Positions 40,725-54,378 of a DNA stretch of 64,000 bases are shown here, in pieces (within the stretch, counting starts at the first letter, position 1; each line of letters opens with the position of its first letter). A program made the position numbers and the translations under genes. Under the pieces are notes generated by a model. That model did not search any database and was not told where the DNA came from. It was given only the letters and a program-made list of their open reading frames with translations. Origin of the DNA: Candidatus Obscuribacterales bacterium (GTDB taxonomy: Bacteria; Cyanobacteriota; Vampirovibrionia; Obscuribacterales; Obscuribacteraceae); contig JAIETZ010000006.1 of assembly GCA_019744775.1 (NCBI GenBank), positions 105,092 to 169,091 of the forward strand. Reading direction: 5' to 3'.

Positions 40725-41076
40725 GCAGGTGTGTTTCTAGATGTCAGAATGAAAGCTTTATCGGCATTAATCAATGCTGGAATCGCCCATAGGATGACAG
40801 AATCGACGATTTTCCGCAATACTTTATACTAAACCACAGGGTTGCCGGCACCTGTTGTATATATACCCTCATTGTAACTATCTATTAATTTGTTCAAATA
40901 AAAGCAAAGCTTCAATAGCGCCTGCTTTACAGCTATTTGCCGCCAGTTTCATATAATTGACAGTCGACTGCATAGAATTTGCATACATAGGTGAAGTAAC
41001 TATCAGGCAATTTAGCGGTTGTAAGTATAGAATTGCCGGATTGATTCTTAGCTTTCAATGCGTTGAGGTATTTGGC
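40725..41076. other. Intergenic region between wzm and the TPR coiled-coil gene
   Basis: About 350 bp without a convincing gene; short ORFs on both strands here overlap each other and have no recognisable content. It contains AT-rich stretches (GTATATATACC near 40856) and must hold divergent promoters for wzm and the TPR gene. Confidence 0.5.
40926..40957 (+). promoter_or_regulatory. Possible promoter of the TPR coiled-coil gene
   Basis: A consensus TATAAT (40952-40957) follows TTTACA (40926-40931), but with a long 20-nt spacer. Transcription would start near 40964, leaving about 113 nt of untranslated leader before ATG 41077. Confidence 0.4.
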
Positions 41077-44000
41077 ATGAAGCGCAAAATCGCGTTATCA
41101 ACTGTGGGCTTGTGTGGAGCACTGATTCTGACATCAGCTGCCTCGGCGCGTAGTTCGGACTGGCAATCAAGCTTTGAACTCGGACGTCGAGCTTTTGCCG
41201 ACGGTCGCTACGTTCAAGCCGAGCAAGAGTTTCGAACTGCTCTTGAAAGTGCCGAATCTTTCGGTAAATCCGACCCTCGCCTGGCGGAGACTCTGACAGC
41301 CCTTGCTGAACTCTATGAGAAAGAAGGCAAGTGGAGCCAAGCTGAAGCTATTTACTGGCGCTGTTTAGAAGCCCAAGAAGTTGCCCTTGGTCCTGACAAC
41401 CAACAGTTGTCGGAAACGCTAAGTCGCCTGGCACAGATTTACACGCTCAAACTCAATGAACCAAGCAAAGCAAGTGGTCTGGTTGAGCTGGCAAATGCTA
41501 TCGACGCCCATGCGCATGCCAAAAGCGACCTGGAAACAGTGCAGTCCTTGCACAATCTGGCAACCATCTATGCTGCACAAAACAAATCTGCCAGCGCCCA
41601 AAAGTTGCTCAAGAGCGCAATGAAATTCGGCGAGAAAGCCCTGGGCAGCCAGAACCAAGAAATGGTTGCAGTCCGTAGAGACTACATTGCTCTGACCAGA
41701 ACAGGCAAAGTACAACCAGCACAGTCACAACGCGTTGTTGACTCTGTTGCAGAAAGCCAAAATACAGAAGCTCCAGCAATCCAACCAGTTGCAACTGCTG
41801 AGCCGGCTGTAAGCGAAAGCTATCTGGCTGACGATCCGGAATTACAGCAAATTGCCGAGCAAGAAAGACTGGCTCGCATGCGCGCTGCTCACGCTAAAGC
41901 CTTGGCTCAACAAGCCGCTGCTGAGCGTGTTAATGCTGAAAGATTAGCCAATGAAAGAGTAACTGCTGCTCAACAAGCCGCTGTCGATAAGGCAGCTGCT
42001 GAAAAAGCCGCTACAGATAAGGCTAATATGGAACGCCTGGCTGCCGAGCGTGCTGCTGCCGAGCGTCTTGCTGCTGAGCGCATTGCCGCTGAAAGAGTAG
42101 CTGCTGAAAAATATGCCGCCGACAAAGCGGAAGCGGAAAAATTTGCTGCAGAAAAAGCTGCTGTTGAGCGTGCGATAGCTGCTAAAGCTCTGGCTGAAAA
42201 GCTTGCCGCTGAGCGTGCCGCTGCCGAAAAGGCCATGGCTGAGAGAATGGCCGCCAAAAAAGCTTTGCTGGAAACAGCATCAGCTGAAAGAGTAGCTGCT
42301 GAAAAAGCTGCTGCTGAAAAAGCCGCGCAAGCCAAATTAATTGCTGAAAGAGAAGCTGCCGAGCGCGCTGCTGCCGAACGTGCCGCTGCCGAACGCGCAG
42401 TTGCTGAAAGAGAAGTTGCCGAGCAATCTTACAAGGCAAAGCTGGCTGCCGAACGCGCTGCTGAATCAGCAAGACTTACAGCAGAAAGACTAGCTGCTAA
42501 AAAAGCTGCCTTGGAAAAAATCGCTATTGCTCGTGCCGTACAAGAAGAAGCAGGTGCGGAGCGCGTCGCTGCCGACTCGCAATATGCTCGCAAGGCTGCC
42601 GCAGCTCGTAAAGCTGAAGCTGAGCAAGCACAGGCATTGCAATTGGCAGAGCAAAAAGCCAATGAAGCACGCATCATTGCGGAGAAATTAGAAGCTGCCC
42701 GTTTGGCGTCAGAAAGACTCTCTGCTGAAAAAGCTGCTGCTGAAAAGGCTGCCACTGAGCGTTCGCTCGTAGCCGCTAGATTAGCTTCGGAAAGACAGGC
42801 TGCCGAAAGATTGGCTACTGAGCGCCGTGCCGCAGAACAAGCTGCTGCTGAGCGCGCCAACGCCGAACTTGCCGCCAGTCGCGATCTCGTATCAGATGTA
42901 GCAATGGAAGATCCGGCCGCTGCAGCTCGTGCTGCCAGCCAGAACCGCATTGCCGTTAGTGCTGCACAAACAGCTCAAACGGAAATTGCCCGCCAGGCTC
43001 AAATTGCCAAGCAACGACTGGAACAACAAAAAGAAGAGCTGGAAAAGCTGCAAGCTGAAAGAGAAAGACTGGAACAGCAATTAGCTGAAGAGAAAGCTGC
43101 TGCTCAACGCGCTCAAGAACTAAGAGCACAAGCTCAACAGCAAGCTTCGGACAACGGCTTAATTGCTGAACAAGAAGCGGCAAGAAAAGCAGCTCAAGAA
43201 AAAGCTAGCCTTGATCGTCAAATAGCGATGGAAAAGGCAGCCGCTGAAAGAGCAGCCATGGAAAGCCAAGCAGCCGAACAACGTGTGGCATTGGAAAAAG
43301 CCAGATCACAAAGAATTGCCGCTGAAAATGCCGCCGCTCAGAAAGCCACAGCAATGAAGGTAATTGCTCAGTCAACCACTAAGGTAGCGCCAGTAAAAGC
43401 GACCACCAGCGTCCTACCTGCCGCACAGCCTGCATTAGAAGGTGATCTTGCACCAATAACCATGCCGTCAGGATTTGCTGATCAAACAGCATTGAATACT
43501 TTGCTGGAAGAAATCAAAGCAAGTGGACCGCAAAACAACAACGGTCTGGCTGTAAGAATCAACCAGTTGGCAGAGCGCTATTTGGGCAAAGGTGATCTAG
43601 TCAGCGCCGAGAATATCTTCAAGCAAACACTCAACGCATACGATCGCGTTGGCGCATTGGATACACCAGCAAGCGCTACCCTGTCGAGCAACCTGGCAGG
43701 ACTTTATTTCAGCCAGAGAAAATATGAGGAATGCCAACTTATGTATGAACGTTCACTTCGCGTGTACGAACATACACTTGGTCTCAAGCATCCTTATGTA
43801 TCCGGTGCTGTAAATAACCTGGCCATTGTTCTCATTCAACAAGGCAAGTACAAGGAAGCGGAAAATCTCTATCAAAATGTTCTTTCTCTCCGCGAGAAAA
43901 CACTTGGACCTGATGATCTATCCGTTGCTGAAAGCTTGTTTGAATTGGGCAGCTATTATTTGAACCGCAAAGACTTCCCGCAGTCAGAGAAGCTCATCAA

Positions 44001-44166
44001 GCGCGCTCTAGCGATAAGAAGCAACAAGCTTCCCGAAAGAAATCCGGAAGTCATTGCCACCCTCAATTGCTACGTTAAGGTCTTGCGCCTTAACAACCGC
44101 AACAGAGAAGCCGATCAAATAGAAGCTCGCGCAGTTGCTGCAAGAATGAAACATGCGGGAATGTGA
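41077..44166 (+). CDS. Exported giant TPR / Ala-rich coiled-coil protein
   Basis: This 1029-residue protein has a signal peptide (about 1-26, ending ASARSSD). It has N-terminal TPRs (about 30-200; FELGRRAFADGRYVQAEQEF), a very long Ala/Glu/Arg/Lys-rich region (about 260-765) made of AAAERxAAEK-type units that should be a continuous helical coiled coil, and C-terminal kinesin-light-chain-type TPRs (about 805-1029; NNLAIVLIQQGKYKEAENLY). It is probably periplasmic or surface-attached and may span or scaffold the envelope. ATG 41077 is preferred over an in-frame start at 40957 because the signal peptide and GAGGT (41065-41069) fit it. Its function is unknown. Confidence 0.85.
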   Translation: MKRKIALSTVGLCGALILTSAASARSSDWQSSFELGRRAFADGRYVQAEQEFRTALESAESFGKSDPRLAETLTALAELYEKEGKWSQAEAIYWRCLEAQEVALGPDNQQLSETLSRLAQIYTLKLNEPSKASGLVELANAIDAHAHAKSDLETVQSLHNLATIYAAQNKSASAQKLLKSAMKFGEKALGSQNQEMVAVRRDYIALTRTGKVQPAQSQRVVDSVAESQNTEAPAIQPVATAEPAVSESYLADDPELQQIAEQERLARMRAAHAKALAQQAAAERVNAERLANERVTAAQQAAVDKAAAEKAATDKANMERLAAERAAAERLAAERIAAERVAAEKYAADKAEAEKFAAEKAAVERAIAAKALAEKLAAERAAAEKAMAERMAAKKALLETASAERVAAEKAAAEKAAQAKLIAEREAAERAAAERAAAERAVAEREVAEQSYKAKLAAERAAESARLTAERLAAKKAALEKIAIARAVQEEAGAERVAADSQYARKAAAARKAEAEQAQALQLAEQKANEARIIAEKLEAARLASERLSAEKAAAEKAATERSLVAARLASERQAAERLATERRAAEQAAAERANAELAASRDLVSDVAMEDPAAAARAASQNRIAVSAAQTAQTEIARQAQIAKQRLEQQKEELEKLQAERERLEQQLAEEKAAAQRAQELRAQAQQQASDNGLIAEQEAARKAAQEKASLDRQIAMEKAAAERAAMESQAAEQRVALEKARSQRIAAENAAAQKATAMKVIAQSTTKVAPVKATTSVLPAAQPALEGDLAPITMPSGFADQTALNTLLEEIKASGPQNNNGLAVRINQLAERYLGKGDLVSAENIFKQTLNAYDRVGALDTPASATLSSNLAGLYFSQRKYEECQLMYERSLRVYEHTLGLKHPYVSGAVNNLAIVLIQQGKYKEAENLYQNVLSLREKTLGPDDLSVAESLFELGSYYLNRKDFPQSEKLIKRALAIRSNKLPERNPEVIATLNCYVKVLRLNNRNREADQIEARAVAARMKHAGM

Positions 44167-44345: not shown

Positions 44346-45299
44346 CTACCGCTTGCTTGCAGTGCCGCACTGCGCTAGATACCAGTCTATTGTTTCCTTG
44401 AGTCCCTTTTCAAAAGAAGTCTGCGCTTCAAAGCCGAAGAACTTCTTGGCTCTGGATGTATCAAGCTTTCTGCGGGGCTGACCGTTTGGCTTACTTTTAT
44501 CCCAAACAATTTCACCATTAAAGTCGGTCAAGCGAGCAACAAGTTCAGTCAAGTCCTTAATTGAGATCTCAAATCCAGAGCCGAGGTTAACAGGCTCCGA
44601 TCCATTGTATTTTTCAGCTGCCAAAACAATTCCTTCTGCACAGTCATCAACGTACAGGAACTCTCTTGTTGGACTACCATCGCCCCAAGCAACAACTTGC
44701 TTTTCATTTTTCTCTTTTGCTTCAACGAACTTGCGTATTAATGCTGGAATGACATGCGAAGACGAAGGATCAAAATTGTCACCAGGTCCATATAAATTTA
44801 CCGGCATCAAATAAACAGCGTTGTAGTTGTACTGCTGCCTGTATGCCTGCGCTTGTACCAAAAGCATTTTTTTGGCCAAGCCATATGGTGCGTTTGTTTC
44901 TTCCGGATAGCCCAGCCAAAGATCTTCTTCTTTGAAAGGAATTGGTACCACTTTCGGATAAGCACAAATGGTCCCAATGGCAACAAACTTATCAACTCCA
45001 GCTTTGCGCGCCTCTTCCATAAGCATGGCGCCCATAACCATATTCTCGTAATAGAACCTGCCTGGATTTTCTCTGTTGGCGCCGATGCCACCGACGACTG
45101 CGGCCAAATGGATAATCAAATCGGGATTAAGGTCTGCCATCAATTGGCGAACGTCGTTTTGTTCAATTAGGTCGTATTCCTTATGTGAAGGCACTAGAAC
45201 CTCGCCGACGGCTCTTTGTTTCAGAACGTTGACGACCCGCTTGCCGAGGAATCCCGAACCCCCAGTGACCAAAACACGATTGTATGGAAAACTGCCCAT
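44346..45299 (-). CDS. fcl: GDP-L-fucose synthase
   Basis: This 317-residue SDR has the cofactor motif GGSGFLG at 13-19, the GDP-fucose synthase hallmark [24 protein letters not shown] with the catalytic Ser position as Thr/Cys, and Y139-x3-K143 (YGLAKK). It epimerises and reduces GDP-4-keto-6-deoxymannose to GDP-L-fucose with NADPH. It is divergent from the gmd-like gene, so both steps of the pathway sit side by side. A TATTAT -10 box (minus strand, 45315-45310) lies 10 nt before the ATG. Confidence 0.92.
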
Positions 45300-45427
45300 A
45301 TATCAAGTCATAATACAACAAAGTAGGAACGGGTCCGATAAAGCCGCCGCTACTGACAATCAATTACTTGCTCGGCCGGGTAAAATGATCTAGATAGTGT
45401 CCTTGATAGTACTGACGGGGTTCCAAG

Positions 45428-46423
45428 ATGAAAAAGCGCGTACTCATAACCGGAATAACAGGCATGGCCGGTTCACATCTGGCGGATTTGTTATTAGCAG
45501 AAGCCCCGGACTATGAAATCTTCGGCACCAAGCGCTGGCGCAGTTCTCTTACCAACGTCGCTCATTTAGATGGAAAAGTTAAGTTTATTGACTGCAATTT
45601 GACCGACAGCACAGCTTGCTTGAAGCTTATTGAAACAACACGCCCCGATTATGTCTTTCACTTAGCCGCGCAAAGCTTTGTACCGCACTCCTGGCAAAAC
45701 CCCAATGCCACTTTGAGCGACAACATCATGATGCAATTGCATCTATTTGAAGCAATCAGATCAGTAGGCATTGATCCTGTAATTCAGATAGCACTGAGCT
45801 CTGAAGAGTACGGCAAAGTTTTGCCACACGAAGTGCCGGTCAAAGAAAACAATCCTTTGCGACCGCTGAGCCCATATGCGGTAAGCAAAGTTGCTCAAGA
45901 CATGCTTGCTTATCAATACAATCAAAGCTATGGATTTAAAACCATTCGCACCAGAGCCTTCAATCATGAAGGACCAAGACGCGGCGAGGTGTTTGTAACA
46001 TCCAACTTCGCTAAGCAAATTGCTGAAATTGAGGCAGGATTGAAACCACCACAATTGAAAGTCGGCAATCTAAATGCCAGACGCGACTGGAGCGATGTAA
46101 GAGACGTTGCTCGCGCCTACTGGCTGTCAGTTCAGCATTGCGTACCTGGAGAAGAGTACGTAATTGCCTCCGGACAGACTCGTTCCATTCAAGAGCTTTT
46201 GGACTTCCTGCTCAGCCAAACAAAATCAAAGATAGAAGTAGTTGTCGATCCAACTCGCCTGCGCCCGTCTGACGTGGAACTCCTGCAGGGCGATCCAAGT
46301 AAATTCATCAAAGCTACCGGCTGGAAGCCACGCTATACATTTGAGCAAACAATGGGCGATTTGCTCGAATACTGGCGTGAGCAAATCCGCAGCGGCAACA
46401 GTGTCATTGGTGTCGGCTCGTAA
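45428..46423 (+). CDS. gmd: GDP-mannose 4,6-dehydratase-type SDR
   Basis: This 331-residue SDR has GITGMAG at 9-15, HLAAQSFVPHSW, ALSSEEYG with the active-site Ser/Glu (124-126), Y150-x3-K154 (YAVSK), and the Gmd block RTRAFNHEGPRRGEVF followed by RDWSDVRDVARAYWL. It should convert GDP-mannose to GDP-4-keto-6-deoxymannose, the substrate for the adjacent fcl product. A 4-reductase (RMD) function cannot be excluded from sequence alone. It ends directly against the convergent ATP-grasp gene. Confidence 0.87.
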   Translation: MKKRVLITGITGMAGSHLADLLLAEAPDYEIFGTKRWRSSLTNVAHLDGKVKFIDCNLTDSTACLKLIETTRPDYVFHLAAQSFVPHSWQNPNATLSDNIMMQLHLFEAIRSVGIDPVIQIALSSEEYGKVLPHEVPVKENNPLRPLSPYAVSKVAQDMLAYQYNQSYGFKTIRTRAFNHEGPRRGEVFVTSNFAKQIAEIEAGLKPPQLKVGNLNARRDWSDVRDVARAYWLSVQHCVPGEEYVIASGQTRSIQELLDFLLSQTKSKIEVVVDPTRLRPSDVELLQGDPSKFIKATGWKPRYTFEQTMGDLLEYWREQIRSGNSVIGVGS

Positions 46424-47395
46424 TTACTTGCCTTCAACAAGCAATCCAGCAAGTCTTTGTGCTATAGGAAGTTCCAATGCTTCTTGAAGCCAAAGAAATT
46501 GCCCCTGTGGATTTAGTTCAAAAAATACAAACCGCCCATCCGGCGTCAAAGCAAAATCAAAAGCAGCATAGACCAATCCCAGGTTTTTCATGAGTTGTCG
46601 ACACTTGGACTCAATATCATCCGGTAGTTTGAACTTGCTTAGTTTGTTATTTCGAGCCACGCGCCAATCCAACTTGGCTCCTTCTACTTGCGGTTCAATT
46701 TTCACCGCAAAGATTTCATCACCAACAACCATTACTCTCAAGTCGCAGATTTTTTCAATTTTTTCCTGAAAAAGCTGCAGTGAATACTTAGTTTGTTCCA
46801 AATGGGATAGATCAGTTTCACGAAATTCAAGCGTGGGCATTCCCCGTGGCTGCTCTTGTTCAGGAAAATATTGCCAGCTCGCCTCGTCGATAAGCTTGTA
46901 AATGATTCTATTTGAAAAGCGCTCAGCAAATTGTTTTATCAGTTTGGGATCGTTGCTGACTAATGTATGTGGGATTTTGAAGCCTGCATCCTGAGCAATT
47001 TTCAATTGATTCAGCTTGATTAGTGCCTCTTGCTGCTTAGTAGGATTATTTACCCAAAAGGCGTGCGACAGAGTTCTATAAATCCCCTCCAGCGCCCTTC
47101 CAGACTCCCAGTTGACCAAAGCTTCCAGCCACCGCTTGGGCATACTACCGCTCTTTGGTGTACCAGGACGCCTGTACCAAATGGCATCAAATGCACCTAA
47201 TTCAAATGTTTGGGAATCCTGTGAAACAAGACTGGCACACTCATTGCCGCCCAGCTCAAACCCCAGCAAGCTTTCTTGCGGAATCCTGCGCGCGGACCAG
47301 ACAACAACTTTACACTTGAGCTTGTCCAACTCGTCACAAACAGCACGAGTATGAACGTCTTTATCAGGCGCCAGAATGAGAATACTTCTGCTCAT
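46424..47395 (-). CDS. MvdD/RimK-like ATP-grasp peptide ligase
   Basis: This 323-residue protein has the landmarks of MvdC/MvdD-type ATP-grasp enzymes: IWYRRP (72-77), FWVNNP (113-118), the QLKIAQDAGFKIPHTLVSN region (from 130), DLRVMVVGDEIFA (218-230), DWR (243-245) and the metal-binding FELNPQGQ (292-299). In microviridin and other graspetide pathways such enzymes form ester or amide links between side chains of a precursor peptide. All catalytic blocks appear intact. It overlaps by 4 nt a 60-codon ORF directly upstream and is divergent from a kinase/PqqD-type operon. The substrate is unknown. Confidence 0.87.
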   Translation of the reverse strand: MSRSILILAPDKDVHTRAVCDELDKLKCKVVVWSARRIPQESLLGFELGGNECASLVSQDSQTFELGAFDAIWYRRPGTPKSGSMPKRWLEALVNWESGRALEGIYRTLSHAFWVNNPTKQQEALIKLNQLKIAQDAGFKIPHTLVSNDPKLIKQFAERFSNRIIYKLIDEASWQYFPEQEQPRGMPTLEFRETDLSHLEQTKYSLQLFQEKIEKICDLRVMVVGDEIFAVKIEPQVEGAKLDWRVARNNKLSKFKLPDDIESKCRQLMKNLGLVYAAFDFALTPDGRFVFFELNPQGQFLWLQEALELPIAQRLAGLLVEGK

Positions 47396-47574
47396 ATATT
47401 TTCATCGCAAATTGCAGAAGCAACATCGCAGATTGGATCTGAATATTTCGACCACAAGGGCGCACAAATGTTATCAGGCTCACCCCACATTATGTCCGCA
47501 TACTCACTGGTCTGACGCAGCCACCAGGCACGTAAAAAGAAAGGCACCAAATTGGCTAGCTGAGAATTGTCCAT
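47392..47574 (-). CDS. Small ORF, candidate substrate or partner of the ATP-grasp enzyme
   Basis: This 60-codon ORF starts at ATG 47574 with AGG about 7 nt upstream, and its stop overlaps the ATP-grasp start (ATGA). The product has three Trp, three Cys (37, 49, 56) and an acidic C-terminal third (SDPICDVASAICDENI) preceded by LWSKYS. No signal peptide and no recognised family. Graspetide cores need Asp/Glu plus Ser/Thr/Lys, which this tail has; that makes it a candidate precursor, but the usual conserved leader motif is not seen. It may instead be a small accessory protein. Confidence 0.5.
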   Translation of the reverse strand: MDNSQLANLVPFFLRAWWLRQTSEYADIMWGEPDNICAPLWSKYSDPICDVASAICDENI

Positions 47575-47640: not shown

Positions 47641-48957
47641 GTGACTAGCCAAACAAACACTGCAAAAAAAATGCTGCTCATTAGCCTAGATGGGCTATCA
47701 GCTGAGCAGTTCCGATATCTGTCAACAACATTTGGCTTACTCAATACCTATTTAAAGTCAGGCATTAAGAAGCTGACCAGCAATACTCTGAGTTCAACTC
47801 AGGGAGCATGGGGCGAAATCTTATCCGGCAAGCCTTGGTGGGAAACCGGCTGTGTAGGATACGCCGTTCCAAAAAATAGTCTTTGCGACTTGGAAGTTAG
47901 CAGCGAGTCTTCTTACAAGCTTGATTCCGCAATGACACAGCTACCAAGTCTTGTCGTCAACGTGCCTTTGTTGGAACCAAAAGACAGGCTCTGGCTTTCC
48001 GAAGGCTTGTCAGCCATCAGCGTTAATCCGAAAAGACTGATGTCTAGTGAACCTTTTAAGTCGTATCAAGCCCGTCCGTTTTCTTCACCGGCATATTTCT
48101 TGGGAAAACCTTTTGAAGGCACTCGACTCTGTCTTGAAGCGGAAAAGCAAAGACTCATCTGCGCCGAAGCCTTGGCTCGCGAAAACAATTGGCAATTAGG
48201 CATCATCCGCCTAACTACTTTTGATCAGTTAGCTCACTTGCTCGGCAACGACTATCTTGGCAAAACCACTCTGGCAATCCGCCCGGAAATTGAGTCTTTC
48301 ATCAGCGAAATCAACGATGTGCTTGAACGTATTATTGAATCTGCAAAACCATCAACAGTTGCCGTTATGTCTTCGTACTCACACGTCGAGTGCAAGAAAC
48401 GCATCAGCCTGAATCAGCTATTGGCACAATTAGGATTCTGCACACTTAAGGATAAAGCCTTGGTACAAAAAGAACAGGTTTTGCGATATGAGTCAACAAT
48501 TGCTCTGTCCACCAGAAAAGTTTCCTCACCCTTAATTTCTACAACAAACGCTTTTGTTGAAGAATCTTGCATCGCAGCTTCTCCTATTCAAGGTGCCATT
48601 TATGTAAACGTAAAAGACCGATTCAAAAATGGAATCGTCTCCCGCGATAGCCAGCAGTCTCATGTCAAGCAAGTTGAATCACAGCTGAAGTCGGCATTGC
48701 ATGAAGCAGGTGTGACCAATTTCAATATTGAGTTAAATCCGGAACCAACAAATTCCTCAAAGACGCCTGCTCCTGATTTAATGGTGTACGCAGATGGAGT
48801 CGACTTTCATAACCTCTACGATGCTCCTGTTGTTGACTCCTTTAGCCATCCAATTAGTTGTCACTCCACAAACGGCTTTGTTTGCATAGATAATAATGAC
48901 GGAGATTATTTAAGTCGCTTATCACTGCATAGGTTGTTGGAAGCGAGGCTAAATTGA
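47641..48957 (+). CDS. Alkaline-phosphatase-fold protein with degenerate metal site
   Basis: This 438-residue protein has the type I phosphodiesterase/nucleotide pyrophosphatase opening MLLISLDGLSAEQF (metal Asp), a nucleophile region NTLSSTQGAWGEILSGKPWW, and TTFDQLAHLLG matching the D-x3-H metal ligands. The canonical S-D-H-G block is replaced by MSSYSHVE, so one metal site lacks its Asp-His pair; HSTNGF keeps the last His. It may be a binding protein or a hydrolase with altered metals. The start is GTG 47641; ATG 47671 is possible. Its stop overlaps the next start by 4 nt. Confidence 0.72.
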   Translation: MTSQTNTAKKMLLISLDGLSAEQFRYLSTTFGLLNTYLKSGIKKLTSNTLSSTQGAWGEILSGKPWWETGCVGYAVPKNSLCDLEVSSESSYKLDSAMTQLPSLVVNVPLLEPKDRLWLSEGLSAISVNPKRLMSSEPFKSYQARPFSSPAYFLGKPFEGTRLCLEAEKQRLICAEALARENNWQLGIIRLTTFDQLAHLLGNDYLGKTTLAIRPEIESFISEINDVLERIIESAKPSTVAVMSSYSHVECKKRISLNQLLAQLGFCTLKDKALVQKEQVLRYESTIALSTRKVSSPLISTTNAFVEESCIAASPIQGAIYVNVKDRFKNGIVSRDSQQSHVKQVESQLKSALHEAGVTNFNIELNPEPTNSSKTPAPDLMVYADGVDFHNLYDAPVVDSFSHPISCHSTNGFVCIDNNDGDYLSRLSLHRLLEARLN

Positions 48958-49766
48958 ATTCGCACATTTATATACTCGGCAGTCACCTTTATCATCTTCA
49001 GTCTAAAGATGGCGAACTTTTGGAACTACTAAATAAACTGCTGCCAAACTATGACAGCAGTATGCACGCGAACAATTACATCAACACTGCCATCGAAACA
49101 ATTGACTTGGATGGACCTCTTCCTATACGAGGACTGGATCAATCCTTATTTGCCAAAGATAATCCGGAAATAGCGTTAATAGGACTCTTAGACCGCTGTC
49201 TAGCTGATCATGCAGGTTACCTTTGGATTGACGCCTCAGCACTCTTAACTCCACAAGGCGCACTTGTTTTGCTATCTGGTCCATCCCATAGCGGCAAAAC
49301 CACCCTTACCTTGTCTATGGCATTGGCGCACAATTGGAAAATCTTGGCCGAAGATATCGTACTCATTGATTTGAAAACTGGACTACTGGTCCCATTTGCC
49401 AGACCCCTTTCGCTGCGATCGGACACAGCCGGCAAAATTAAAACAGCAACCGGACTTGATGTCGGGTCGTTTGTCTTAGAAGGATGGCTCACCAATAGCC
49501 AGTGGTACAGTCTTAAACCGGTGCCGGCCAACTTCGACCTAGCCATAGACTTAGCTGTAACCGATAAGGATGCAGCAACCAGCCTAAAAATTAACACTGT
49601 GGAGAATGGCGAGTTTCTGCGAAGCCTGATTACCCATTCAAATGCGCTTCGTTACGACAATGGTGTCCAAGTCTTATCGAGCGCGTTTGCCAAAGCAACG
49701 CTCAACTTGCTGTCAGGCGGCTCACCTAGGGACAGAATCAACCATTTGCTCAAGCTAGGCTGCTAA
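48954..49766 (+). CDS. HprK-like kinase (HPr kinase fold), peptide-system type
   Basis: This 270-residue protein has a P-loop GPSHSGKTTLT (109-119) and LAEDIVLIDL (131-140), the HprK-type nucleotide/acceptor loop, in a fold like the C-terminal half of HPr kinase/phosphorylase. The length and missing N-terminal domain fit the HprK-related proteins found in RiPP and PqqD-linked loci; in lasso-peptide clusters (PadeK, ThcoK) such kinases phosphorylate the precursor. It starts at TTG 48954 (TTGA overlap with the previous stop), so is translationally coupled. The likely substrate is the small peptide encoded at 50146. Confidence 0.82.
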   Translation: MNSHIYILGSHLYHLQSKDGELLELLNKLLPNYDSSMHANNYINTAIETIDLDGPLPIRGLDQSLFAKDNPEIALIGLLDRCLADHAGYLWIDASALLTPQGALVLLSGPSHSGKTTLTLSMALAHNWKILAEDIVLIDLKTGLLVPFARPLSLRSDTAGKIKTATGLDVGSFVLEGWLTNSQWYSLKPVPANFDLAIDLAVTDKDAATSLKINTVENGEFLRSLITHSNALRYDNGVQVLSSAFAKATLNLLSGGSPRDRINHLLKLGC

Positions 49767-49775
49767 AATGAGCCA

Positions 49776-50054
49776 ATGCATTATCAACGCAATGATGAAA
49801 TTAAGACAACTCTGATGCCGGATGGTCATGTGGTTCTATTTAACACAAAGACCGAATGGGCTCAGGTGTTAAACCCTGTCGGCGCTCTGGTCTGGGAGTA
49901 TTGCGATGGGACTACTTCCGTCATGGAAATGACAGACGAAATCAGCAAGTTGCTGGAGACCGATAAGACTGCATTGCAAAATGATGTTAATTCCTTGATT
50001 GACGAACTTTTGACCCAAGGACTAATTAAACAGGCGCAGCCAAGTAAGCCATAA
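49776..50054 (+). CDS. PqqD-family peptide-binding protein (RRE)
   Basis: This 92-residue protein has the PqqD winged-helix pattern: an N-terminal beta hairpin (TTLMPDGHVVLFN), LNPVGALVWEYCDGTTSVMEM, then helices to LIDELLTQGLIKQ. PqqD/RRE domains bind the leader of a precursor peptide and present it to modifying enzymes. It starts 9 nt after the kinase stop and precedes a 70-aa peptide gene. Kinase plus PqqD plus small peptide suggests ribosomal peptide modification. No lasso protease (B2) or cyclase (asparagine synthetase-like) is present. Confidence 0.87.
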   Translation: MHYQRNDEIKTTLMPDGHVVLFNTKTEWAQVLNPVGALVWEYCDGTTSVMEMTDEISKLLETDKTALQNDVNSLIDELLTQGLIKQAQPSKP

Positions 50055-50082
50055 GCCAGGCTGAGCTTAGCTTTTGCCGTGC

Positions 50083-50091
50083 TGATATAAT
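50083..50091 (+). promoter_or_regulatory. Extended -10 promoter of the small peptide gene
   Basis: TGATATAAT gives a consensus TATAAT (50086-50091) preceded by TGn. No good -35 is seen, as usual for extended -10 promoters. Transcription would start near 50098, giving a leader of about 48 nt with AAGGT (50133-50137) 8 nt before the ATG. The peptide gene can thus be expressed apart from the enzymes upstream. Confidence 0.6.
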
Positions 50092-50145
50092 ATGCTTTAG
50101 GGGGAGCTTGGTCTTCAAGTAGGGCTAGCCATAAGGTCGAAAACC

Positions 50146-50358
50146 ATGACACACGACAACCAAAACGACATCACCATCAAAGACGCTAACTCTCCGGCCA
50201 GCGACAAAAGCATAAGCCGGAAAGAGTTTGTGCACTTGGTCTTGAAGCGCGGTGCCATAGCAGGCGCAATCGTTGCGGCCCCCAAAATTATCGATAAATT
50301 TCTAGTACCACCAGTCTATGCAGGCACTAGCACACAACCTCATGGACACTTGGCCTAA
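50146..50358 (+). CDS. Small exported peptide with Tat-like leader, candidate RiPP precursor
   Basis: This 70-residue protein has a polar N-terminus (1-22), a Tat-like signal SRKEFVHLVLKRGAIAG (from 24; twin basic RK rather than RR), a hydrophobic core, and a possible signal peptidase site VYA-G (57-60). Cleavage would release 11 residues, GTSTQPHGHLA, rich in Thr/Ser/His. It has its own promoter and follows HprK-like and PqqD-like genes. Thr/Ser in the tail could be kinase targets. It has no Asp/Glu in the tail, so is not a likely graspetide core. It could also be a small Tat-dependent protein of other function. Confidence 0.7.
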   Translation: MTHDNQNDITIKDANSPASDKSISRKEFVHLVLKRGAIAGAIVAAPKIIDKFLVPPVYAGTSTQPHGHLA

Positions 50359-50412: not shown

Positions 50413-52860
50413 ATGGATACTGCATTAAATAATAAAGTTATGGCAACTTGGAAGACCTATGCTGGGGTCTTTTTAGTTACTGCCGCAACGCTGCTACTAG
50501 AATTACTACTGACCCGAATCTGGTCTGTCACAATGTGGTATCACTTTGCTTTTGTGGCAGTTTCACTCGCTATGTTTGGCATGACTGGCGGCGCTCTTTT
50601 AATTTACCTTATGCCGAACCGCTTCCCTCAGAACAAAACGGAAAGCCAACTATCGCTAGCTACATTATGCTTTGGCATATCTATCATTATCTCCTTCCTT
50701 TGTCACCTCGCCATGCCCTTCATGCCGGACAAATCATTGAGCGGTTTATTTGCTATGGGTCTTTCTTACTTGACCATATCCATTCCGTTTATATTTAGCG
50801 GTATCGTCATAACTCTGGCTCTCACGCGTTACTCTCAGCAAGTAAATAAGATGTATGCAGCTGATCTCTCAGGAGCTGCCATCGGTTGTCTTTTATTCAT
50901 CGGAATTCTAGACTTGGTCGACGGTCCCACAGCAGTAATCGTCTCTTCACTCGTAGCCCTTTGTGCTGCACTACTACTTTCGACCAATAAGAAACAAACT
51001 ATGGCAACAATCATCGCTGTGGTTTCGGTCGGGCTATTGGTAGTTCTGAATGTCTGGTCTGTGCAAATAAAACATCCTCTTGTGCGTCTAATGTGGGTAA
51101 AAGCCAACTTTCAAACGCCATCATATTTCGAACGTTGGAATTCACTATCACGCGTTTCTGTCGATGGCGACCCTGAGCACAGATTTGCTTCTCCAGATAT
51201 AGCAACTTCCAATCCTAGTGAAAAGGAGAAGGGCAAGCAATTACTACTGACCGTAGACTCACTTTACTCCACGCCATTGCCTGGGTTCAGCGGGAAGCTG
51301 GCAGATGCCGATTACTTGAAGCACGATATCAGCTTTTTGGCTCACTACCTAAGACAAGACGCTAATGTACTGGTAATTGGAGTCGGTGGGGGTCGCGATA
51401 TTCTGGCAGCTCTCAACTTCAATCAAAAATCAATTACCGCCGTTGAGATCAACAAAATATTTACCGATTTGCTCCTTAATACCTTTGCTGATTTCTCCAG
51501 CAATTTCGCACGTGACAAGAAAGTGACGCTTGTAAATGACGAGGCCCGTAGCTTTGCAAGCAGGCAAAAAGACAAGTTCGACATTATTCAGTTATCTTTC
51601 ATCAGCACGGGTACTGCTAGTTCCACAGGCGCCTTTGCTTTGACGGAAAACTCGCTCTATACAAAAGAAGCCTGGCAAATGCTTCTTAACCATTTAACTG
51701 ACGATGGGATTCTGACGTGCACTCGCAACTATTTCGTGGATGAGAAGGGACTGGCTCGTCCTGGCGAACTGCAACGCCTAATTTCCCTTGCTCGCGCCGC
51801 GCTTGAACAAAACAACATTGCCAGCCCGGAAGCTCATATTGTCTGCATATCGCATACTCCAAGCAAGGCGATAGACGAAGGCATCGCTTCAGTAACGATG
51901 CTGGTAGGCAAAAAGGCTTTTTCAGAAAAAGATTTGATAATTCTCGCTCAAGTAGCTAAGGACAACAACTTTAATATCTTGTTGACACCGAAATATTCAT
52001 CGGAACCATCGCTCAAGACATTGGCATCAGGCAACGGATTAGCTGAACTCACCAATGAATTTCCCACGCGGATCGATGCACCCACGGATGACAATCCGTT
52101 TTTCTTTTACATCTTGCGATTGGAGAAGCTTTTCACAACCAAAGCCAGCGAAGTAGGCACCTATGCAATTTACACCAAAGCAATGGAAATTCTTATCGAA
52201 TTACTGATTGTGGTCGTGGTGCTCACTGCTGCCTGCTTTGTCGTGCCATTGGCCTTAACCAATAAGTCTCTGAAATTGAAGCGAGATTTACCACTGCTTA
52301 CATTTTTCGCCTCAGTAGGACTCGGTTTTATGTTTATCGAAGTATCGCAGCTACAGCGTCTCGTTATATTCCTCGGACATCCGACTTATAGTCTGTCTGT
52401 TGTACTTTTCTCGCTGTTGTTATCTTCCGGACTGGGCAGCTATCTGGCAGGAATAATCAAACAAGATACGACTTATAAGGGCGACTTAACAAGACTCACA
52501 CTGTTACTCTTTGCACTTGGTGCATATGCGTACGTATCACCTGTAGTTGTTCATTCCCTACAAGCTGCCACTACGCCAGAGCGTGTCATAGCCACGATAG
52601 CGATGCTCTTTCCACTCGGACTGCTTATGGGTATGGCCGTTCCAGCGGGCTTGCGATTAGCTCAACAGGAGTCCGCAGAAATTCTTCCCTGGCTGTGGGG
52701 AGTTAACGGCGCAACATCTGTTTGTGCATCAGTGGTGGCAGTTGCCGTCGCTATCAACTGGGGACTTACCAATTCCTATTGGATTGGCGTAATTTGTTAT
52801 CTAGCAGCATGTACGGCATTCGCTTGCGCAAGAAAATCCTTACCGGAAAGCAAGTCTTAG
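50413..52860 (+). CDS. Polytopic membrane protein with spermidine-synthase-like domain
   Basis: This 815-residue protein has N-terminal membrane segments (about 15-220), a cytoplasmic SAM/aminopropyl-transferase-like Rossmann domain (VLVIGVGGGRDILAAL, AVEINKIF, then FDIIQLSF), and a second set of membrane segments from about 590 to the end. This is the SpeE-fused membrane family, known in many bacteria but without a settled reaction. The usual Asp of polyamine synthases in the GGGDG motif is here R-D (GGGRD). It follows the peptide gene by 54 nt in the same direction and may process or export its product; this is inference. Confidence 0.83.
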   Translation: MDTALNNKVMATWKTYAGVFLVTAATLLLELLLTRIWSVTMWYHFAFVAVSLAMFGMTGGALLIYLMPNRFPQNKTESQLSLATLCFGISIIISFLCHLAMPFMPDKSLSGLFAMGLSYLTISIPFIFSGIVITLALTRYSQQVNKMYAADLSGAAIGCLLFIGILDLVDGPTAVIVSSLVALCAALLLSTNKKQTMATIIAVVSVGLLVVLNVWSVQIKHPLVRLMWVKANFQTPSYFERWNSLSRVSVDGDPEHRFASPDIATSNPSEKEKGKQLLLTVDSLYSTPLPGFSGKLADADYLKHDISFLAHYLRQDANVLVIGVGGGRDILAALNFNQKSITAVEINKIFTDLLLNTFADFSSNFARDKKVTLVNDEARSFASRQKDKFDIIQLSFISTGTASSTGAFALTENSLYTKEAWQMLLNHLTDDGILTCTRNYFVDEKGLARPGELQRLISLARAALEQNNIASPEAHIVCISHTPSKAIDEGIASVTMLVGKKAFSEKDLIILAQVAKDNNFNILLTPKYSSEPSLKTLASGNGLAELTNEFPTRIDAPTDDNPFFFYILRLEKLFTTKASEVGTYAIYTKAMEILIELLIVVVVLTAACFVVPLALTNKSLKLKRDLPLLTFFASVGLGFMFIEVSQLQRLVIFLGHPTYSLSVVLFSLLLSSGLGSYLAGIIKQDTTYKGDLTRLTLLLFALGAYAYVSPVVVHSLQAATTPERVIATIAMLFPLGLLMGMAVPAGLRLAQQESAEILPWLWGVNGATSVCASVVAVAVAINWGLTNSYWIGVICYLAACTAFACARKSLPESKS

Positions 52861-53585
52861 CGTCGCGTAACAGCTAAGGGACTACTACCAAACATCTTTT
52901 CGATTTCTTTGGTCAATTCAGTCAAATCCTTAGCAGTATCAACTGTCCGCCAGAAAAATTTGGACTTATAGGCTCTCAATTGCCCGCTCTTAGCCAATCC
53001 CGGTAAAGTTGTCTCCTCATGATCGCCGACATCCGGCAAAAGATCAGTGATATCAGAATCAAGCAAATAAATACCGGCGTTAATCCAAAAAGGCAATTCC
53101 GGCTTTTCTCTAAAGCCAGTCACCAAGGCATTTTCCTCAATATCGACAATGCCATATGGGCTGCGCAAAGGGACCGTAACCAGCGTCGCAATTGATTTAT
53201 GCTGAGTATGCGTTTTGTAGAGATCGTCAATCGGCAAGTTGGTAATAAGGTCGCCGTTGAGAGCTATCAAAGGGCCACCATTGGCACTATTACGCAAATG
53301 AGTCATGCACGCCTTAAGCGCACCACCACGTCCCAGTGGCTTTTCCTCTACAAGATAGTCAATTTTGAGATCCCACTTGGAACCATCACCGAAATGCTTC
53401 TGGATAATCTCGTGTTGGTAGCCGCAGGCAATAGCCACGTGCTCAATGCCATAAGACTTTAACCAATGAAGCTGATAAGCTAAAAGCGGATTTCCAAGTA
53501 TTTCCACCATCGTTTTTGGACGGTCATCCGTCAGGGGCCGAAGCCTCTCCCCGCGTCCCCCGGCTAAGATAATGGCTTTTTTCAT
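52857..53585 (-). CDS. Sugar-1-phosphate nucleotidyltransferase
   Basis: This 242-residue protein opens with the nucleotidyltransferase motif AIILAGGRGERLRPLTDDRP and KTMVEILGNPLL, then has IALNGDLITNL with the metal-binding Asp and TGFREKPELPFWINAGIYLL. It lacks a C-terminal hexapeptide domain, as in RmlA-short, RfbF and HddC-like enzymes. It makes an NDP-sugar (NTP + sugar-1-P); the base and sugar are not clear. The gene is convergent with and overlaps the membrane protein by 4 nt, and is divergent from the sugar transferase. Confidence 0.88.
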   Translation of the reverse strand: MKKAIILAGGRGERLRPLTDDRPKTMVEILGNPLLAYQLHWLKSYGIEHVAIACGYQHEIIQKHFGDGSKWDLKIDYLVEEKPLGRGGALKACMTHLRNSANGGPLIALNGDLITNLPIDDLYKTHTQHKSIATLVTVPLRSPYGIVDIEENALVTGFREKPELPFWINAGIYLLDSDITDLLPDVGDHEETTLPGLAKSGQLRAYKSKFFWRTVDTAKDLTELTKEIEKMFGSSPLAVTRR

Positions 53586-53676
53586 CGTTATGATTCCCGA
53601 ACTAATAAAGTAAACAAATAGATTAAAGAGCTATGATAGAGGAAATGGCAAGATATTTCGAGCTAGGAGTCTCATC

Positions 53677-54378
53677 TTGGAAGCCGGCACCTTTGATACT
53701 GCGTCACATCATTCGGTAGCAAAGAAAACCATTTATGGTTTGTTCGGCAAGAGATTCTTTGACCTATTGTTCGGCAGCATCGTCTTTATTTTTTCCCTAC
53801 CTGTCCTGCTTTTAGCATCCCTTGTAATCATGATTGATAACCCGGGAAGCCCTATTTACAGGCAAAAACGGGTAGGCAAACACGGCACCGTCTTTGACTT
53901 GTACAAGATTCGCACCATGTACATCGACCAGGAGCATCACGGTTTTCGCACCACCGATGGTGACAGCCGCGTCACCCGTTTCGGCAAAATTCTACGCGAT
54001 ACTAAAATAGATGAACTGCCGCAGCTGTTTAATGTTATTAAGGGCGACATGAGCCTCATTGGACCCCGTCCATTATCCGTCAGCGAATTTGAATACATTG
54101 AACACCTTGGATTTGCTGAGACACATCCAGGCTTTTGTCCGGAAGTCGCTCCCGGGCTAACAGGTCTGGAGCAGGTCAACCGCGCCGGATTGCACATGCC
54201 TTACGTAGACCGTTTCATCTTCAACAAATTCTATGAAACTCACCTGTCGCCATGGTGGGACTTCAAAATCCTGGTCAAAACTTTCCTGCTTTGCACACCC
54301 GTCTGCATCCTGTTAGGGCTAGCCGGACTTGCCGAGCTTGCCTGGCTAACGATACCTGCCTATTTAATCGTTAAATAG
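53677..54378 (+). CDS. Polyprenyl-phosphate sugar-1-phosphate transferase (initiating)
   Basis: This 233-residue protein has KRFFDLLFGSIVF with the N-terminal membrane hairpin, then YRQKRVGKHGTVFDLYKIRT and DELPQLFNVIKGDMSLIGPRP. These are the catalytic Asp-Glu and the signature of the WbaP/PglC type (Bac_transf). It links the first sugar-phosphate to undecaprenyl phosphate and starts glycan assembly. The C-terminus has an extra hydrophobic stretch (about 205-233). The start is TTG 53677 with AGGAG 8 nt upstream. It overlaps the convergent SRPBCC gene by 15 nt. Confidence 0.92.
   Translation: MEAGTFDTASHHSVAKKTIYGLFGKRFFDLLFGSIVFIFSLPVLLLASLVIMIDNPGSPIYRQKRVGKHGTVFDLYKIRTMYIDQEHHGFRTTDGDSRVTRFGKILRDTKIDELPQLFNVIKGDMSLIGPRPLSVSEFEYIEHLGFAETHPGFCPEVAPGLTGLEQVNRAGLHMPYVDRFIFNKFYETHLSPWWDFKILVKTFLLCTPVCILLGLAGLAELAWLTIPAYLIVK

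Follow-up and report, generated by a model that had tools for sequence, protein, structure and literature searches.

The window analysed here is a 64,000-nt stretch of DNA (contig C6, positions 105092-169091) within the 4.1 Mb Obscuribacterales genome of a non-photosynthetic member of the Cyanobacteriota, and it contains a gene cassette with two divergent sides. On the minus strand lie the gene for an MdnC/MvdD-like ATP-grasp peptide ligase of the graspetide synthetase type (46424..47395) and an open reading frame (ORF) for a 60-amino-acid candidate graspetide precursor, peptide A (47392..47574), the stop of which shares 4 nt with the ligase start. Genes on the plus strand encode an alkaline phosphatase (AP)-superfamily protein with a predicted type I phosphodiesterase/nucleotide pyrophosphatase (NPP) fold and an altered metal site 2 (47641..48957), a P-loop kinase of the HprK/PEPCK fold with a TTG start (48954..49766), a PqqD-type peptide-binding (RRE) protein (49776..50054) and a 70-amino-acid peptide, peptide B (50146..50358). 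The stop of the AP-superfamily gene overlaps the kinase start, and the kinase is translationally coupled to it. A membrane protein with a spermidine-synthase-like domain (PF01564; 50413..52860, plus strand) is an optional part, found in three of 16 cassettes (the window, L033 and L038 only).

The cassette sits in a large polysaccharide biosynthesis and export island (window positions 1-40724, 44346-46423 and 52857-54378), which includes glycosyltransferase, SLBB/Poly_export, ABC-2, GDP-mannose dehydratase and Bac_transf genes; positions 40957-44166 encode a 1069-amino-acid protein, TPR-like at both ends and rich in Ala/Glu/Lys/Arg along a long middle part that is probably coiled-coil. Among the ORFs examined at 34-56 kb, which comprise sugar, export and peptide-cassette genes along with unrelated ones, there is no lasso cyclase or leader protease; no radical SAM enzyme was seen in the locus. 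An earlier note on this DNA had named the kinase, the PqqD protein and the 70-amino-acid peptide as a set lacking lasso and radical SAM enzymes. All three ORFs are real, and none of those enzymes turned up; the set is not, however, free of peptide-modifying enzymes, as it is flanked by the AP-superfamily protein and by an ATP-grasp peptide ligase that comes with a separate precursor gene.

The ligase matches TIGR04187 (E 1.5e-68) and TIGR04184 (E 3.8e-57), and its matches to TIGR04187, TIGR04184 and TIGR04185 span 1e-68 to 5e-57; its scores lie under the NCBIfam curated cut-offs for MvdC, MvdD and TIGR04187 (193, 194 and 231 bits vs. 425, 475 and 350), while its match to PF21068 is above cut-off. 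A profile of 10 homologues matched PDB entries 5ig9 and 5ig8 at E 4e-63 to 4e-58, and CdnC (7mgv) and AMdnB (7m4s) at about 1e-56; the titles of 5ig9 and 5ig8 read merely ‘ATP grasp ligase’, and we take these two to be MdnC and MdnB. On these matches, the gene clearly belongs with the peptide ligases.

Peptide A consists of a leader with the segment PFFLRAWWLR and a core, PLWSKYSDPICD. P-F-x-L-R-x-W-like residues recur in the leaders of 16 homologues, those of L222 and L223 being slightly degenerate; the cores follow the pattern W(15/16)-S(13/16)-x-x-S(15/16)-D(16/16)-P(16/16)-x-C(16/16)-D(15/16). Microviridin precursors carry PFFARFL in their leaders, and Phhx(1,2)h describes graspetide leaders in general (PMC8939145); the PFFLRA of peptide A fits it. 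Graspetide cores combine acceptor (S/T/K) with donor (D/E) residues, and both are present in A (S in 15/16, D in 16/16 and D in 15/16 homologues). Ala stands in place of the second core Ser in L038, where Gln also stands in place of the last Asp; this paired change is one isolated hint of a possible link between the two residues. Several features pair the ligase with A, namely gene adjacency, coupling, the leader motif and the chemistry of the core, and A is most likely cross-linked by it; the tail of B in the window contains neither Asp nor Glu, and would thus be unable to carry such a cross-link. The dN/dS of A is ~0.05-0.06 against congeners (dS high, 60 codons).

The AP-superfamily protein matches PF01663 at 31.9 bits (cut-off 23), and its AF2 model (pLDDT 84.8) matches phosphonoacetate hydrolases and NPPs (best E 4e-11). 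The Zn1 ligands D195, H199 and H408, mapped by inference from motifs, are invariant; the site-2 Asp of an SDH-type motif, likewise mapped by motif, is lost in 11/11 homologues, which have Ser, Gly or Ala instead, and the nucleophile position, Ser/Thr in nine of these, is lost in two. Because the active site is incomplete in these respects, the protein may catalyse a reaction that uses metal differently, or may have a role in binding.

The kinase, whose P-loop (GPSHSGKT) contains an invariant Lys, matches TIGR04352 (HprK-related kinase A) at E 1.9e-10, with 40.3 bits against a curated cut-off of 200; 21 of its 22 homologues match the same family at E<=0.001. HprK shares the PEPCK fold, and the AF2 model (pLDDT 91.9) is of that fold, with a PEPCK match at Foldseek E 1e-5 and VIA Z 14.6 (rmsd 4.5 over 245 residues), so that the modelled protein falls within the HprK/PEPCK fold. 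Searches of the PDB with the kinase profile reached HprK at E 0.12 at best, and no HprK was among the structural matches listed; the HprK side of the assignment therefore rests on the NCBIfam match and the known kinship of PEPCK and HprK. HprK-like kinases of lasso clusters phosphorylate a precursor Ser, the phospho-Ser being modified by PsmN, and share a His-Lys-Asp-Asp (HKDD) catalytic set (PMC9266682). The corresponding residues here, taken from an alignment of homologues without a directly aligned lasso kinase, are His (His86, 16/22), Lys (22/22), Glu (22/22) and Asp (20/22), Glu replacing the first Asp in every member. The PqqD-type protein matches PF05402 with E 1.9e-13 and 51 bits (gathering cut-off 23.4). 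PqqD domains bind peptides.

Peptide B comprises a leader, SRKEF..APKIIDKFLVPPVYA, and a Ser/Thr/His tail, GTSTQPHGHLA. A congener's copy shares 83% identity with it, at a dN/dS of ~0.04 (dS saturated). Conservation of GTST, which the earlier note would have counted as support, holds within the genus and breaks down beyond it; tails in the family are short and Ser/Thr-rich in most members and long in a few. In loci that also contain A, B includes an AP-x-x-x-DKF-x-x-(P/Q)P stretch, which is mostly missing where B occurs without A. Across the family, an S/T-R-x-x-F motif retains its first Arg and its Phe, and the stretch downstream is moderately hydrophobic (Kyte-Doolittle maxima of 1.0-2.0 over 17 residues). 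The host genome has TatC, and the N-terminus had been read as a Tat-like signal; that reading did not survive comparison, as the residue after the first Arg in 30 homologues is Lys in 18, Gly in four, Ala in three, Glu, Ser, Gln and Thr in one each, and Arg in a single one (the residue in L046 was read by eye). Lacking the second Arg in 29/30 members, the window's SRKEF included, the family is a doubtful candidate for Tat export, which was ruled out as the default. The conserved N-terminal part would read better as a leader recognized by PqqD.

The extended -10 element that the earlier note had placed before peptide B is real (TGATATAAT, approximately 50080..50093, plus strand), and a 12-nt block, GCTGATATAATA, is identical in the congener L033, where the remainder of the intergenic stretch differs more. 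A two-hexamer promoter scan did not list this element, and returned sites no more numerous than in shuffled sequence; the conservation of the element supports separate transcription of B, in line with the earlier note. A block of the same type, GCTGATAAAATT, lies upstream of the AP-superfamily gene (47641) in three genomes.

To define the distribution of the cassette, 50 family genomes were searched with profiles of A and B. Peptide A, counted at E < 1e-3, occurs at 16 loci in 11 Obscuribacterales genomes; the B family occurs in 16/50 genomes at E<=0.01, the weakest member (G037, E 0.003) being doubtful. The ATP-grasp gene adjoins peptide A, and an AP-superfamily gene is present, in 16/16 A loci; gene order differs from one locus to another. 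Peptide B is present in 15/16 (the exception, L034, is a contig end), PqqD in 13/16 (it is missing from L034 and L221, both cut by a contig edge, and from L038, a complete locus), the kinase in 13/16 (absent from L220 and L225, neither at a contig end, with L221 cut) and a PF14907 nucleotidyltransferase in 9/16, the sole PF14907 gene of the window's genome lying 85 kb before the window. In relatives, as the earlier note had suggested checking, B adjoins the kinase/PqqD pair. This conserved co-occurrence gives good support to a peptide-modification locus made up of kinase, PqqD and substrate peptide, and we propose that peptide B is phosphorylated.

Nine further loci (L039, L042, L043, L045, L047-L050 and L226) have kinase and PqqD genes with between one and three copies of B, and are devoid of A, ligase and AP-superfamily gene, which makes B, kinase and PqqD a module of their own and B the likelier partner of the two proteins; B is most likely bound by PqqD and phosphorylated by the kinase. 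The window combines this module with that of A, ligase and AP-superfamily protein. Divergence of all parts is correlated (r 0.60-0.85), a figure confounded by species phylogeny, so that their diverging in step reflects, in part, shared ancestry.

This organization appears to be restricted to one lineage. Among 80 ATP-grasp loci from named genomes, 12/13 in Obscuribacterales contain peptide A, and A, B, the AP-superfamily gene, kinase and PqqD are found in 0/67 outside the order (Fisher p ~2e-13 for the restriction of A, uncorrected for kinship). Profile searches of 385 other genomes, evenly sampled from the phylum, found no convincing A or B. The kinase alone, used as query, retrieved no relatives in 84,980 named genomes; relatives came up with the ATP-grasp alignment as query. 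An Obscuribacterales ATP-grasp homologue on the same branch (L092:7905-8987) has no recognisable A or B nearby.

From the observed gene content, conservation, linkage and folds, we infer the substrate pairings and every chemical step of the following scheme. The cassette is probably, though well short of certainly, a lineage-specific RiPP set with two substrates, in which the ligase serves A, PqqD and the kinase serve B, and the AP-superfamily protein belongs to the A module. The PFFLRAWWLR helix of A would dock on the ATP-grasp ligase, which would join Ser/Thr side chains to Asp/Glu carboxylates within the core W-S-x-x-S-D-P-x-C-D. PqqD would bind the conserved N-terminal leader of B (S/T-R-x-x-F...), and the HprK-like kinase would phosphorylate Ser/Thr in its variable tail; in other loci the PF14907 protein may elaborate that tail. 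The AP-superfamily protein, always found with A and the ligase, might act on a phosphoester or bind the product. Several findings count against this scheme: the Glu in place of the first HKDD Asp, the retention of His86 in no more than 16/22 kinases, the incomplete AP site, the lack of a kinase in 3/16 loci, one complete locus without PqqD, and the ligase homologue of L092, which has no A.

Alternatively, a single substrate may be modified stepwise, A being both cross-linked and phosphorylated with the help of PqqD, and B serving as a membrane-anchored or exported accessory peptide (immunity or carrier). The near-invariant Ser residues of A, and the usual presence of kinase and PqqD at A loci, would suit such an arrangement, which we nevertheless regard as unlikely, given that B, kinase and PqqD occur together without the A module in nine loci, some with as many as three B genes in tandem, and that two complete A loci lack a kinase. 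More speculative still is an extension of the two-substrate scheme, in which cross-linked A and phosphorylated B from one cassette would be functionally joined, with the phosphoester handled by the altered phosphodiesterase-fold protein and the near-fixed A core pointing to a constant signal or cofactor, not to an antimicrobial that diversifies.

The polysaccharide island around the window (Poly_export, ABC-2, Bac_transf, GDP-mannose dehydratase), together with sugar transferase and nucleotidyltransferase genes that recur beside some kinase loci, raises the prospect of exopolysaccharide tailoring, in which PqqD, kinase and AP-superfamily protein would act on phosphate attached to sugars or lipids, and A and B would serve as regulatory or scaffold peptides; we hold this to be improbable, as the ATP-grasp gene sides clearly with peptide ligases, PqqD domains bind peptides, and many cassettes have no adjacent sugar genes. 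Least probable is that the kinase and PqqD produce a single Tat-exported phosphopeptide, B, beside ATP-grasp and AP-superfamily genes that are mere neighbours: TatC in the host, and an A-x-A-like site and a Ser/Thr-rich tail at the end of B, would agree with it, but twin Arg is found in 1/30 homologues, and mere neighbourhood does not explain the linkage of A, ligase and AP-superfamily gene to B in 15/16 loci of differing gene order.

Compared with known systems, the two-substrate locus shares with graspetides (microviridin, plesiocin) an MdnB/MdnC/CdnC-like ligase, a coupled precursor, a P-F-F... leader and core Ser and Asp; its own features are the leader PFFLRAWWLR, the core WSxxSDPxCD, and the linked HprK-like kinase, PqqD, AP-superfamily protein and second peptide. 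These four associates are absent from the associate table of a 2022 graspetide survey (PMC8939145). Nor does any of the four appear in the main text of a 2026 survey of >20,000 predicted graspetides, which mentions no kinase, PqqD or phosphatase and places phosphotransferases solely in groups 29 and 37, both of Actinomycetota; its supplementary tables might list such a group (PMC13097080). Literature searches on graspetides with PqqD or HPr kinase, on Obscuribacter, and on kinase or phosphorylation found no report of the combination.

Kinase-bearing lasso clusters (paeninodin PadeK, ThcoK, pseudomycoidin PsmK/PsmN) likewise have an HprK-like kinase, a PqqD-type protein and a PF14907 nucleotidyltransferase (here in 9/16 loci), but no lasso cyclase or protease was found in the present locus, B is an unrelated substrate, and Glu replaces the first HKDD Asp. 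The SynChlorMet cassette gives weak matches below curated cut-offs (PqqD to ScmD, E 1.2e-8; 2/22 kinases to ScmC), and no radical SAM enzyme was seen in the locus here, which has an ATP-grasp enzyme instead. The AP-superfamily protein shares its fold and Zn1-type ligands with the NPP/phosphonoacetate hydrolase family, and differs in the loss of the site-2 Asp (11/11) and, in 2/11, of the nucleophile Ser/Thr. If correct, the two-substrate scheme would extend graspetides to the sister class of cyanobacteria that lacks photosynthesis, adding a leader and a core of a new type. It would also place in a graspetide locus an HprK-like kinase and PqqD hitherto discussed mainly for lasso and radical SAM systems, and offer a two-peptide system, open to testing, that pairs different enzymes with different leaders.

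Some related loci are more elaborate. Clusters in L044 (6620-12695) and L046 (7132-13158) each contain four HprK-like kinase genes interleaved with a PF14907 gene, and adjoin an A-ligase-AP-B cassette; a thioredoxin/AhpC-domain protein lies within the L044 cluster and its L046 relative. In L047 (7151-9373), a tetrapyrrole-methylase-family protein (PF00590, E 3e-16) is the last of four in a row, after kinase, peptide B and PqqD; it presumably resembles split-borosin N-methyltransferases, so that B may meet other RiPP enzymes. Three tandem B genes each in L042 (6816-7639) and L043 (9260-10171) have near-identical leaders and different tails, and a B homologue in L049 (10909-11286) has a tail of PAPPTP/PEPPAPTP-type repeat.
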